DNA of 60,995 nt from Lachnospiraceae bacterium (lineage in GTDB: Bacteria; Bacillota; Clostridia; Lachnospirales; Lachnospiraceae): positions 1 to 60,995 of the forward strand of contig JAFTAP010000082.1 in the NCBI GenBank assembly GCA_017455525.1, written 5' to 3'. Under the pieces are notes generated by a model. It was not told the origin of the DNA. It searched no databases and was given only the letters and a program-made list of their open reading frames with translations. Of the stretch, positions 41,276 to 45,876 are shown one piece after another. The position numbers and the translations under genes are program-made. The first letter of the stretch is position 1. Each line of letters opens with the position of its first letter.

Positions 41276-41415
41276 ATACCATATTTCTAAACTCGAAACC
41301 ACCTCGCCAAGAAATATGGTATGACTCGCACGTAAGCGAGCAAAATACGCTCGCTAAGTGCTAATGTTATACCATATTTCTAAACTCGAAACCACCTCGT
41401 TAAGAAATATGATAC
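41276..41415. repeat. Nested inverted-repeat cluster between serC and the A-T-C synthase gene
   Basis: Two copies of a 47-base unit (41276-41322 and 41369-41415) each have a 13-base arm ATACCATATTTCT and its complement AGAAATATGGTAT around a 21-base loop that is almost identical in both (CTCGAAACCACCTCG core). The second copy has two changes in its right arm. The right arm of copy 1 and the left arm of copy 2 are also complementary, so several mutually exclusive hairpins can form. Between them are a 7-base-pair hairpin (AGCGAGC/GCTCGCT) and a smaller CTCGC/GCGAG one. It looks like a non-coding palindromic element, not a simple terminator. Confidence 0.75.
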
Positions 41416-41420
41416 TGTGA

Positions 41421-44400
41421 TCAGATGTCTGCTCCATTAACCGTAATGATCTCCGGTGCCATGAATTTTCCCAGCTTTTCCGTCACAAACTGCTGCAGTG
41501 CTTCCTTTTCTATGTCCCCTGCCGCTTTAAGAGACGCCTTGACATAGAAAAGATTGTTCTCTCCGTACTCCAGGGAAGCCTCCGCTTCCTCTATTCCTGG
41601 ATATGTCTTCAACAGACGCTCAAGCTCAAACAGATTGATGAAGGATCTTCCCGCAAGCGTCTCCCTCATTACTGTCCGTCCGGCCTGATACAAAGCCTCT
41701 ACCTTATTATCCGGAGTGATCCTCGCATCGATCCCCGTGTCATAGAGGGTTCCCGGAGTATAAAGGCTCTCGATCTTCTCTGTACAGCCATTTACAGGCT
41801 GATCCAGCAGATAAAGCCTCCCCCAGGCTCCATATGGCTTTTTCATTCCGTATTCATCAAGCACATACGGCTTTACTGTCATTCCCTCCGTCACATCCGG
41901 TACGACCTCATATCCGATGGATGCGTTCAGTCTTTCGGCAGATATGCTTATATGCGTCGGATAAAGCTTTGCCGCAAGGTGATCCTTAAGCTTCCTGACA
42001 GAAGTCTCATCCTGCATAGCTATGATTATATTCTCCATGGCCGCAAGGAATATCTCGAGCATATCCCGGTCATAACGGTTTTCCCAATACCTGAGCTCAT
42101 AGGTATAGCCCTTGCCTCCGGCATAGATCATGAGATGGAACGGCAGGGAATCAAGCTGGATCTTGATGCCCTCTGCAGGCTCTCCGCCGATCTGTGGGAT
42201 CTCAAGGAGGTCTCCCTGATACTGTATGAACATCTCGTCAGCATGCTGGCTGGACATATGTGTTTCCATGGTATGAAGTATCTGATCCGCATTTCTCTTC
42301 AGGAGATGCTCGACGGTTTCATGAAGGATCCTCTTGTATCTGAACACATAGGTTGCGAAGAACGATCCCGCAAGACGGACCCATCTTCCGTCAGTCCTTC
42401 CGTTATGTATGCTGGTGATGACAACATCATCGGAAGCTCCGAAAAGCCCTACGGCATAACTGAATGCCGTCAGGAACAGCGCGTTCTCGGATATACCGAT
42501 TTTCGAACAGAAGCCCTGCAGTGTCTTTTGATTCAGTCCCGCGAATTTCCCCTTTACTACAGCATTATGCGCCGTAGCAAGGTCGTAGCTGTCCATCTTG
42601 GCCAGTATGCTCTTCTTTATGTTGCAATCCTTTAAAAGCTCCTTAAAGAAGGCTATATCCTTATCCCTGAGTCCTGCTTCATCCCTCGCATATTCATCAA
42701 GGATATACTCATAGAAGCTGTAATCCGAGCCCTTTACCGGATTACCCAGATAGAGGTTGTTCAGATCCTCAAGCAGGATGTTCATGGTCATACCGTCGCC
42801 TATGATATGTGCCACATCGAAGAATATATATTTATCGGTATCCGTCTGGTAAAGTCCTATGTGATAGAGATCATCACCGGGCATATACATATACGGAACT
42901 ACAAGAGTCTTTCTTTTCTTCTCCCACTCATCATTGGAGAGGGTAAGCCTCTCTATGGTGACCTCCCGGCTGTCGTCACGGAAATTGTACATCCGCTTGT
43001 CTTCACCGGGCTCGATCCTGTCAGACAGAATGGGATGGATCTTAAAGAGCTCCCTTACAGCCTTCTCCATACGGTCCAGATCTATCTTATTGCTGAGTCT
43101 GAAGAAGAAGGGAAGGTTTGCTGTGGTATTCCCCCGCATTACATACGCAAAATACATCTGCAGCCTTGTAAGCGGGTATTTATCACGCAGGGTATAATCG
43201 ACCTTGCTCTGCTTTGTCTTCTCTTTAAGAAACGCGGCGATCTTTTCCACGGTGGAGTTTTCCATAAGCTCTGAAAGCGTCAGTGAAAAACCGTAGGATT
43301 CCTGCAGGGCGGTAAGAAGCATGATGCTTCCAAAGGAATCCAGACCTGCACTGTAGAGATCCGTATCTATGCTGAACTTCCTGTGTGCCAGAACCGAGGC
43401 GCAGGCTTCATATATCTTCTTCTGCTCTTCATTTTCAGGCAGACGCATGTTTGCGGTCTGCTCCTTTACAGCAGCCTTTTCCTTAAAGAAGGCGTCACGT
43501 ATGATCTTCTTGGAGGTTGTTTTCTGGAAGGGGGCTCTGCGGACTCCCGTCTGCATGATACGCTTGAAGGGAGGCAGCTTCTTATTGTGCTCCTTTATAA
43601 GCTCTTCAACCTCGAGCTCTATGTTCTTTACACCGCTCGCCTCAGCGTACTTGAAGTCAGGGTAGACCTCACATTTGATCATATCGTCTTCGCCGTATAC
43701 AAGAATCTCCGAGATCAGAGGCTCTGTGGTAAAGCCTGCTTCGATCTCCTCCGGTGCCACATTTTCACCGTTGCTTAGGATGATAAGGTTCTTTATGCGA
43801 CCTGTGAGATACAGGAAATCCTCATCATCCAGATATCCCACATCGCCCGTCTTAAGCCAGCCGTCCTCCGTAAAGGTCTCTGCGGTAAGCTCGGGATCGC
43901 CGTAATATCCCTGCATAACGAAGGGTGAGCGCACCTGAACCTCGTTCTCCTCTCCGATCCTTACCTCCACATGCTTCATAACCTTACCGGCCGAGAGCAC
44001 CTTATCGGGTCTGCCGTAAACCGGTTCTGAGATTATGGGCGAATGCTCGCTCATACCGTAGCCCTGTCCGATGCGGACTCCCATATTATAGTATTTTTCC
44101 GCAAGATCCTTTGCGAGGCCTCCGCCTCCGCAGACTATGCGTGATATCCTCCTGCCGTACACCTGGTAAAGCGCATCTCTCTCAGTAAGCCCCGGATCAG
44201 CGCTTACCATTGCAAGGATCTTATTATAGAGGGCCTTTGCGATCATGGGAACCAGATGGATTACGACCGGCTCAAACATCCGCAGATGCTTGCCGAGCTG
44301 CGACAGAGGTCCGTTGATGCATATAGTTGCTCCCTTATGGATCATGGCAAAGATATCCGCTTCTATGCAGTATACATGATGGATGGGAAGCACGTTCAGA

Positions 44401-45056
44401 ACAACCGTAGGCTGCGGATCATCTACCTCATCCTGGGCAAGTGCATTACCCACGAGATTGAAATTGGAAAGCATGACGCCCTTGCTGTGCCCTGTTGTAC
44501 CGGAGGTGAAAAGTATCATCGCAAGATCATCAGGCTCGATCTTATAATCATCACCTGATGCTACCCAGCTCTTCCCCGTGTATTTTATATCTGTCAATAT
44601 ATCATTTAAGCAGGGTGTCTTTTTGACTGACTGCAGGGAATAATAATCCGTGATCTTCGGACAGAGCTCCTTCGCATCACTTATAAGCGGAACATGCTCC
44701 CAGTCATAAAAGAGTATATCGACATCCGATCTGTTAAGGCAGTCCGTCAGATGCTCAAGATCCATCTGATAATCCAGTGGAACGGCGACATTTCCCGAGG
44801 CCATGGCTCCTAACAGCACGGAAATATAATATGCGCTTGATGAACCGAATAAACCTACCTTAATCTGTCTGCCAAGCTTTGCTCTTCTTTCATTCAAAAA
44901 AGCTCCTACTATGCGGCAAAGCTCTCCGAACCGTTCGTAACTGATATCATAGATCAGATCGTCCCTCTCATAGCGAAGAAAAGAATTCTCTTTGAACTCT
45001 TCGATGCTTTTTTCCAGCATTTCACGAATGGTTCTTGTGTTTTCGTAAGTGATCAT
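41421..45056 (-). CDS. NRPS-like synthase: adenylation-carrier-condensation-partial adenylation (candidate N-acyl amide synthase)
   Basis: The 1211-residue protein contains an adenylate-forming domain (about 1-530; ATP-binding ILFTSGTTGHSKGVMLSN, GYGMSEHSP, WLKTGDVGYLD and a C-terminal lysine in QKTTSKKIIRD), a carrier domain (about 540-615; phosphopantetheine serine Ser574 in GLDSFGS), a condensation domain (about 625-1040; AHIIGDG, the first histidine of HHxxxDG being Ala but the catalytic His750 present), and a final segment (about 1050-1211) that aligns with only the last third of an adenylation domain (YDTGIDARITPDNKVEALYQ; NLFELERLLKTYPGIEEAEA). The first domain resembles fatty-acyl ligases more than amino-acid adenylation domains. 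I infer loading of a fatty acid and transfer to a free amine. Start ATG 45056 follows GGAGGGGG. Confidence 0.85.
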   Translation of the reverse strand: MITYENTRTIREMLEKSIEEFKENSFLRYERDDLIYDISYERFGELCRIVGAFLNERRAKLGRQIKVGLFGSSSAYYISVLLGAMASGNVAVPLDYQMDLEHLTDCLNRSDVDILFYDWEHVPLISDAKELCPKITDYYSLQSVKKTPCLNDILTDIKYTGKSWVASGDDYKIEPDDLAMILFTSGTTGHSKGVMLSNFNLVGNALAQDEVDDPQPTVVLNVLPIHHVYCIEADIFAMIHKGATICINGPLSQLGKHLRMFEPVVIHLVPMIAKALYNKILAMVSADPGLTERDALYQVYGRRISRIVCGGGGLAKDLAEKYYNMGVRIGQGYGMSEHSPIISEPVYGRPDKVLSAGKVMKHVEVRIGEENEVQVRSPFVMQGYYGDPELTAETFTEDGWLKTGDVGYLDDEDFLYLTGRIKNLIILSNGENVAPEEIEAGFTTEPLISEILVYGEDDMIKCEVYPDFKYAEASGVKNIELEVEELIKEHNKKLPPFKRIMQTGVRRAPFQKTTSKKIIRDAFFKEKAAVKEQTANMRLPENEEQKKIYEACASVLAHRKFSIDTDLYSAGLDSFGSIMLLTALQESYGFSLTLSELMENSTVEKIAAFLKEKTKQSKVDYTLRDKYPLTRLQMYFAYVMRGNTTANLPFFFRLSNKIDLDRMEKAVRELFKIHPILSDRIEPGEDKRMYNFRDDSREVTIERLTLSNDEWEKKRKTLVVPYMYMPGDDLYHIGLYQTDTDKYIFFDVAHIIGDGMTMNILLEDLNNLYLGNPVKGSDYSFYEYILDEYARDEAGLRDKDIAFFKELLKDCNIKKSILAKMDSYDLATAHNAVVKGKFAGLNQKTLQGFCSKIGISENALFLTAFSYAVGLFGASDDVVITSIHNGRTDGRWVRLAGSFFATYVFRYKRILHETVEHLLKRNADQILHTMETHMSSQHADEMFIQYQGDLLEIPQIGGEPAEGIKIQLDSLPFHLMIYAGGKGYTYELRYWENRYDRDMLEIFLAAMENIIIAMQDETSVRKLKDHLAAKLYPTHISISAERLNASIGYEVVPDVTEGMTVKPYVLDEYGMKKPYGAWGRLYLLDQPVNGCTEKIESLYTPGTLYDTGIDARITPDNKVEALYQAGRTVMRETLAGRSFINLFELERLLKTYPGIEEAEASLEYGENNLFYVKASLKAAGDIEKEALQQFVTEKLGKFMAPEIITVNGADI

Positions 45057-45182
45057 ATACCCCCTCCTTAATAAAAATGATCAAAATAACTCGTTTATGA
45101 ATGCAGTCCTGCGCTCCATGGATTTCTTCAGCACCGCGCTCCTCTATCATACCAAAAAAAAGGCAGATAATAAAAGTATTTA

Positions 45183-45735
45183 CTATCCTCCGACTGACAC
45201 GTACTTTTTCGCTACTGCGCCTTTATCATCCAATACAAAGACATATGATCCGCCATCGTCGGTAAACAGGCACTCCGTAGGAACCCTCAATACCCCGTCA
45301 GCCTTCTCCAGATCCAGAGTGACATCCGCATCCAGTCCGACTATGAGATCTTCGTCCGTGTCTATCTTTATCTCTATGCTTGCCTTGGCCTTGCCGGAGG
45401 AATCATTTTCGGCAGACTGATTGATCTTTGAAACCTTTCCGGTATATTTCTGGTTTCCGATCTTTATTTCCGCCTCCTGCCCCTCCTTTACGGAAGCAAT
45501 GTCATATTTTGACACCATCATCCTGACTATATAGCTATCATCGGACTGCATCTCACAGATGGGCACTCCCTTTTCAACATAAGCGCCTATATCTACAAGA
45601 CAGTTTGTTATTATACCGTCTGTAGGAGCTACTGTTCCGCTCTCAGCCCTTGCAGGCTCCTTTTCTGCCTTGGTAAGCGTGATCTTGCTGCGCTCCACCT
45701 GCTGCTGATCCGAAACGATCTCCTTGTAAGCCGGC
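45183..45735 (-). pseudogene. Truncated efflux membrane-fusion protein (HlyD/RND adaptor type)
   Basis: The readable part encodes a fragment of a periplasmic-adaptor-like protein: coiled-coil end (SDQQQVERSKITLTKAEKEP), lipoyl half-motif (GTVAPTDGIITNCLVDIGAY), and beta-barrel domain (VSKYDIASVKEGQEAEIKIG). The normal N-terminus with membrane helix and first lipoyl half is missing, and the C-terminus stops early after KKYVSVGG. Upstream, the frame runs into out-of-frame hsdM sequence near 45735. No transporter gene for it is nearby. I read it as the remnant of a larger ABC-type efflux locus. Confidence 0.75.
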
Positions 45736-45876
45736 AAGATACTTTGCTTCCTTATCCGATAGGAACTTGTAGAATATGAACCCCAGTATATAATCCTTGT
45801 ATTCATTCGCTTCGATCTTAGACCGCATCTTATTAGCGGATTCCCATACCTTCGCTGCAAGCTGCTGTTTATTCAT
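45736..45876 (-). pseudogene. N-terminal fragment of a type I restriction-modification methyltransferase (hsdM)
   Basis: The first about 47 codons (MNKQQLAAKVWESANKMR, then YKDYILGFIFYKFLSDKE) are a typical HsdM N-terminus with its own ribosome site (AGGAG). They then break off into sequence of the efflux-protein fragment in another frame. The methyltransferase catalytic part, hsdS and hsdR are all absent. It marks a deletion or recombination junction. Confidence 0.75.

Follow-up and report, generated by a model that had tools for sequence, protein, structure and literature searches.

A fused acyl-type adenylation, carrier and condensation protein with a conserved adenylation stump in Lachnospiraceae, a putative N-acyl amide synthase

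What does a single protein make when it carries loading, carrier and condensation domains and then ends in a fragment of a further adenylation domain? The question is raised by a 1211-amino-acid (aa) open reading frame (ORF) at 41421-45056 (-), with its ATG at 45056, in a 60,995-nucleotide stretch from a Lachnospiraceae bacterium (GenBank assembly GCA_017455525.1, contig JAFTAP010000082.1); we call this whole stretch the window. The protein runs from an adenylation (A) domain through a carrier (T) and a condensation (C) domain to a stump of a second A domain, and the ancestry of these pieces indicates that it is a chimera of parts from two enzyme families. Our preferred reading, held with moderate confidence, is that it is a self-contained, one-protein N-acyl amide synthase that would join a fatty acid to a free amine or amino acid.

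Domain order and distribution of the fused protein

Pfam matches follow one another along the ORF as AMP-binding (residues 17-385, 4e-49), AMP-binding_C_3 (423-526), PP-binding (547-610, 1.5e-10) and Condensation (624-931, 4e-33), and the same search finds no thioesterase, reductase or second carrier in the protein. The acyl-type A domain (residues 1-530, 43467..45056 (-)), assigned by Pfam, tree and conserved catalytic residues, divides into an A core (~1-420) and an A sub (~421-530), with the P-loop TSGTTGHSKG and Lys517 as the A10 lysine. The carrier, or peptidyl carrier protein (PCP), occupies residues 547-610 (43227..43418 (-)) and bears the phosphopantetheine serine, Ser574, in a GLDS motif. 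The Condensation match stops at residue 931, position 325 of 456 in the profile; in an AlphaFold2 (AF2) model the fold reaches ~residue 1027, and Pfam, model and trees together place the C domain at residues ~618-1030 (41967..43205 (-)). Behind it, at residues ~1056-1204 (41445..41891 (-)), lies what remains of a second A domain of amino-acid type, the stump, identified by phmmer, conservation, substitution rates and the AF2 model. The initial annotation, made from the sequence alone, had proposed this A-T-C order with a partial second A domain in one ORF, a carrier serine and no thioesterase or reductase, all of which hold; the partial domain is present but shorter than the 1040-1211 it had given, since the C domain runs to ~1030.

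Scanning genome contigs gave 53 stretches, 36 of them with a relative, in 36 loci. All 36 relatives are one open frame with the same fused layout, stump included, and are 40-94% identical through T, C and stump (in three, L003, L005 and L023, a contig end truncates the frame). Across the resulting family alignment of 37 rows, the window protein plus its relatives, Lys517, Ser574 and the C-domain residues His750 and Asp754 are invariant. The relatives come mostly from rumen and gut Lachnospiraceae (29 of the 36 are recorded as Lachnospiraceae), the others being labelled Ruminococcus, Oscillospiraceae, Eubacteriaceae, Eubacterium, Anaerobutyricum and Clostridiales. Within the genus, 27 of 48 genomes carry the fused gene (24 nearly full length, 3 cut), and another, G020, has pieces only. 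A wider sample of the family yielded it in 15 of 397 genomes, counting the window's own, in a search that scored at most 2 candidates per genome at E 1e-100.

The order of domains had been called unusual, and this is only partly so. A-T-C in one chain is not rare in the genus: we retrieved 13 other ORFs of 952-1057 aa, all matching the A and C profiles and 10 of them the carrier profile, and in each of the three submitted to Pfam the AMP-binding, PP-binding and Condensation families were found. We therefore rejected the A-T-C order as the novelty, since other proteins of the genus share it; its unusual features are the acyl-type A domain and the stump. These 13 single A-T-C proteins are spread over 10 genomes, and one locus (L120, G044:C57, 2224-8323) holds two A-T-C proteins in tandem, of 978 and 1057 aa, overlapping by 11 bases.

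Ancestry of the loading domain, condensation domain and stump

Where does the loading domain come from? Beyond the fused family, its nearest relatives are stand-alone A domains of ~500 aa. Among 16 of these with known surroundings, a carrier adjoins in every case and a free-standing C domain as well in 15, as judged with profiles built partly from the same loci (six of the 16 carriers for the carrier profile, six C domains for the C profile). The free C domain of one such cluster, L054, matches the crystal structure of OaaC (PDB 12KH) at 2e-170, which makes this cluster one of the kind described in the accessible text of PMC13142362: fatty acid amide (FAA) systems of gut Clostridia that resemble nonribosomal peptide synthetases (NRPSs), such as OaaA/OaaACP/OaaC of Coprococcus eutactus, built from separate proteins and with OaaC reported as the maker of the amides. 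The remaining free C domains are tied to that of L054 by profile and tree.

In the A tree, 20 fused A domains, 15 A domains of FAA clusters and one from a locus resembling those for ribosomally synthesized and post-translationally modified peptides (RiPPs) form one group (96/96); the fused clade itself has 99/99, and the FAA-cluster A domains are not resolved as a single clade. FadD and an acyl-CoA ligase lie on the fused/FAA side, opposite all eight NRPS A domains, EntF and EntE (98/87). OaaA was not in this tree, and the link to it runs via the OaaC-like neighbours. Identities agree: the window A domain is 33-40% identical to FAA-cluster A domains, 18-20% to NRPS A domains and 23% to E. coli FadD. 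The suggestion of an acyl-CoA-ligase-like loader is thus upheld, the domain grouping with stand-alone acyl-type A domains and not with amino-acid adenylation domains, the outcome that had been named in advance as its refutation. Acyl loading by the window protein is, on this comparative evidence, well supported.

The C domain has another history. Its motif, AHIIGDG (residues 749-755, 42792..42812 (-)), keeps the predicted catalytic histidine, His750, but has alanine in place of the first histidine. In the family alignment this first position is Ala in 36 rows and Ser in one, with the second His, the Asp and the Gly in all 37, so that the motif reads AHxxxDG in 36 and SHxxxDG in one; the comparison sets have HHxxxDG in 14/14 NRPS C domains and DHxxxD(S/A) or NHxxxD(G/A) in 15/15 FAA C domains. 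A branch with 100/99 separates all 15 FAA C domains from the fused and NRPS C domains. When 12 A-T-C proteins were added the split stood at 99/97, with EntF on the FAA side; EntF, on a long branch, is the sole possible starter-like reference in these trees. In the enlarged tree the fused clade (100/100) sits on a long branch of 1.4, and its union with the 14 NRPS C domains, the C domain of one A-T-C protein and one free C domain has only 80/87.

Other comparisons run the same way. The window C domain is 12-17% identical to FAA C domains and 19-26% to NRPS C domains, and a profile of the fused C domains scores 95-198 bits on those of NRPS proteins (L089-L092 and L095-L099) and FAA C domains reach 33 bits at best, the majority giving no match. 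The carrier profile scores 12-61 bits on NRPS carriers and 15-19 bits on three FAA carriers. The AF2 model of the C region fits the C domain of SrfA-C (root-mean-square deviation, rmsd, 2.5 over 388) and TycC PCP-C (3.0 over 436). Trees, motif and profile scores led us to reject an FAA-group C domain; in its sequence relationships the fused C domain is nearer to C domains of modular NRPSs than to the FAA (OaaC) type. The initial annotation had considered equivalence to the gut FAA enzymes, which is not supported, because the C domain lies outside their group and has a different active-site motif. The simplest origin would be the joining of an FAA-type loader to a T-C-A piece of an NRPS, with loss of the core of that second A domain, the finer order of events being unsure.

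What, then, is the stump? Pfam makes no call on it, and its phmmer hits among solved structures fall on the C-terminal part of NRPS A domains: SrfA-C residues 787-936 (4.8e-5, one single stretch), BmdB 815-911 (1.4e-6) and TycB 791-937 (3.9e-6), the latter two values being whole-chain E-values that include a second stretch, and, at only 0.18, the GrsA A domain, 396-503. By what we take to be the A motifs, it begins at A6, holds remnants of A7-A8 and stops before the A10 lysine, spanning A6-A9; A1-A5 and A10 are missing. Where A7 should have its aspartate, all 37 rows carry Ile, Lys, Leu, Arg or His, and a working adenylation domain is very unlikely.

The stump is nevertheless kept, in all 36 relatives, and does not look like the mere structural relic that had been one suggestion. 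Trp1078, Arg1112 and Glu1146 are invariant in the 37 rows, and mean modal frequency is 0.73 over residues 1076-1130 and 0.60 over 1131-1204, with 0.71-0.73 for the C domain. Of 10 pairs compared for the stump, three were saturated and 7 gave a ratio of nonsynonymous to synonymous substitution rates (dN/dS), ranging over 0.025-0.096; in the same seven pairs the C domain gives 0.007-0.050, and the stump is higher than the C domain in four. These values are rough, as dS exceeds 1 in four of the seven, and they point to purifying selection on the stump, which is thus probably a working part. A structure prediction of the tail, which had been proposed as a check, gives an AF2 confidence (predicted local distance difference test, pLDDT) of 79-95 in blocks of ten residues across the stump, a fold that rests on few VIA-align rows because these cover mainly model residues 13-594. 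Superposed on LgrA, T, C and stump of the model align over up to 608-617 of 682 residues, at rmsd 6.0-6.9.

Genomic surroundings and possible partners

A good ribosome-binding site, AAGGAGGGG (read by eye), lies at 45061-45069 (-), 4 bases 5' of the ATG. No gene adjoins the fused gene in all loci, several of which are bounded on one side by a contig end, and in three (L009, L014 and L026) the immediate neighbours were judged by eye only. The most frequent neighbour is an Abhydrolase_3 hydrolase (PF07859 in 6/6 scanned), which adjoins in 15 of 36 loci, eight times on the same strand within 25 bases and seven times divergently. In genome G021, hydrolase and A-T-C-stump form a single open frame of 1727 aa (L088, 3922-9105 (-); also L043). 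The partner hydrolases carry an N-terminal domain of ~250 aa, on which Pfam gives nothing in four of five and one match at E 0.15, and the structure model of the hydrolase is weak (mean pLDDT 69). Of the 48 genus genomes, 18 encode the hydrolase, and the fused gene occurs in 16 of these and in 11 of the 30 that lack the hydrolase (Fisher p 0.0007, uncorrected for kinship). The hydrolase is not beside the window gene and was not found in the window's genome (93% complete) at E 1e-30; in the closest relative (L003, 94% identical) it stands ~18 bases upstream of the fused gene. Such a hydrolase could supply the fatty acid or break down the product. The hydrolase N-terminal domain also has a free-standing relative of 209 aa, at 28% identity, in the window's own genome (L114, G000:C57, 526-2952), where it adjoins a gene that by eye resembles a MATE transporter.

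Two genomes have an FAA-type cluster immediately downstream of the fused gene. The order in G044 is fused gene, free C domain, carrier and A domain, all on one strand, with gaps of 27, 42 and 9 bases (longest frames); in G032 the fused gene overlaps the free C gene by 4 bases, and carrier and A genes again follow on the strand.

Which partners does the window's genome offer? The fused protein's C domain is the only one there above the family cut-off, and a phosphopantetheinyl transferase domain is encoded on contig C41. A protein with A and carrier domains on contig C57 (L113, G000:C57:10969-14034; 1022 aa) also shows a weak match, below cut-off, to the end of a C domain; it may mirror the fused protein as another holder of a partial NRPS domain in that genome. 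As a partner it was rejected: its relatives occur in only nine of the 48 genus genomes, four of these with the fused gene, and do not track with the fused family.

Several further observations concern the flanks and the relatives. Directly upstream of the fused gene (45183-45876 (-)), a 77-aa ORF that matches the HsdM N-terminal family shares its DNA, in another frame, with an HlyD-family fragment, an arrangement that looks like gene debris or an insertion scar. Between the fused gene and the next gene, two identical 30-base repeats (41276-41305 and 41369-41398 (-)) flank a stretch that by eye resembles a hairpin; the genome has no further copy when up to 3 mismatches are allowed. The RiPP-like locus met in the A tree (L053, G015:C32, 7594-15102) has a 78-aa carrier overlapping its stand-alone A domain by 4 bases, three proteins that match Radical_SAM (one of them under the Pfam cut-off), an Rce1-like CAAX protease and a 103-aa ORF whose matches to Frankia_peptide and nitrile-hydratase-alpha are weak and stay below cut-off; it may serve peptide lipidation.

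Proposed chemistry, its rivals and known systems

From the domain order, the catalytic residues, the ancestry of each part and their conservation we infer a scheme in which the chain length of the acid, the acceptor, the product and the role of the stump are all provisional. The A domain would activate a free fatty acid with ATP and load the acyl group onto the phosphopantetheine arm of the built-in carrier, two steps that rest on ancestry and intact residues. The C domain would then pass the acyl chain on to a small amine-bearing acceptor, one not tethered to a downstream carrier; this transfer is proposed from the intact His-Asp pair, the lack of a second carrier and of any partner tracking with the fused gene. 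Formation of the amide with a free amine would itself free the product, and no thioesterase would be needed. The stump, very probably without catalytic activity but kept, would probably cover the C-domain face against which an A domain packs in modular NRPSs, and may shape access for the acceptor; the initial annotation had suggested that it completes the C domain or positions the amine, as it might. We put forward more tentatively, and think it less probable, that the family is a second, separately assembled class of bacterial N-acyl amide synthase, made from an FAA-type loader and a T-C-A piece of an NRPS whose A domain was reduced to the stump, which turns a carrier-dependent C domain into a user of soluble amines. 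On this more tentative reading, the G021 hydrolase fusion would be its fullest form, one protein that takes a fatty ester, frees the acid, activates it and amidates it.

Several observations weigh against a free-amine synthase of this kind. The fused C domain is nearer to C domains whose acceptors are carrier-bound, and a free amine is not implied by its ancestry. On the loading side, a fatty acid as substrate is suggested by relatives, and the A domain nearest the fused clade is that of L053 (92/96), whose locus has a carrier but no C domain; the A domains of L060, L063 and L064 come next (80/75), and their FAA label is weaker because their C domains are only ~25% identical to that of L054. 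FAA C domains occur in 9 of the 27 genus genomes that carry the fused gene and in 7 of the 21 others, no more often together with it than chance would give (p 1.0). No amine-making neighbour recurs among the part of the neighbours that was annotated. Finally, three small carrier-like ORFs in the window's genome, together with the C57 protein, are possible presenters of an acceptor.

The C-domain ancestry and the carrier-like ORFs would suit lipo-initiation in trans, in which the C domain passes its acyl group to an aminoacyl residue on a separate carrier and so starts a lipopeptide. The scarcity of C57 relatives speaks against this, as does the finding that among the 37 clustered loci the hydrolase is the sole neighbour to recur in more than 5; a shared amine-supply gene was likewise looked for there and none was seen. 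The carriers of the window's genome might present a trans acceptor, and we consider lipo-initiation unlikely overall. Slightly less likely still is a free amino acid as the acceptor, giving N-acyl amino acids and not amides of other amines. The C domain, like the stump, looks as if it came from a C-A module that used amino acids, and serC-like and serA-like genes (by eye, no family search) follow in the window, but among the flanking ORFs retrieved for the 36 relatives none clusters with either gene. The accessible text of PMC13142362 reports that FAA C domains exclude amino acids, the fused C domain being of another group. Decay is hardly credible: an NRPS remnant on its way out would fit a truncated A domain without the A7 aspartate and A10, and the HsdM and HlyD fragments just upstream, but the layout is shared by every relative, the catalytic residues of A, T and C are intact and the stump's dN/dS is low, and for the family we reject it on conservation and dN/dS.

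The one-protein amide synthase that we prefer would use chemistry already known from FAA systems. Like OaaA/OaaACP/OaaC, the fused protein combines a carrier and a C domain with a related A domain of the acyl type, and lacks a thioesterase; FAA-like clusters occur in the same genus, beside the fused gene and on one strand with it in two genomes. It differs in being one chain, in the window and in all 36 relatives, and in its C group, its AHxxxDG motif where FAA C domains have a (D/H)HxxxDS-like one, its low C identity to FAA enzymes and its extra A stump. This single-chain hybrid of another C lineage, with its conserved A stump, is not described among the matches listed in the open-licence literature, and the accessible parts of PMC13303155 and PMC8241843 do not mention it; a mention in Chang et al. 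2021 (Nature Microbiology) is possible. The FAA C-domain survey in PMC13142362, as far as its accessible text goes, was limited to proteins of 300-520 aa and would leave the fused family out. Likely lipid-amide producers, present in over half of the genus genomes searched, may thus be uncounted. Gut FAA enzymes are reported in the same accessible text to produce ligands of host receptors, and the fused protein may be another route to lipid signal molecules in gut microbes.

Seen from modular NRPSs, the protein resembles a T-C-A module such as that of LgrA (linear gramicidin synthetase) in its T, C and stump, but lacks by our estimate ~350-400 residues of the second A domain and the next T, and its first A domain is acyl-type. 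Unlike canonical modules it does not have HHxxxDG in any of the 37 rows and has no complete acceptor A and T. It is a natural case in which a C domain of probably carrier-dependent lineage is left without an acceptor module while part of its partner A domain, the stump, persists, which bears on C-A interdependence and on NRPS engineering. VibH and terminating C domains join an acyl or peptidyl carrier thioester to a soluble amine, and by analogy with them the same chemistry is proposed here for the fused protein.

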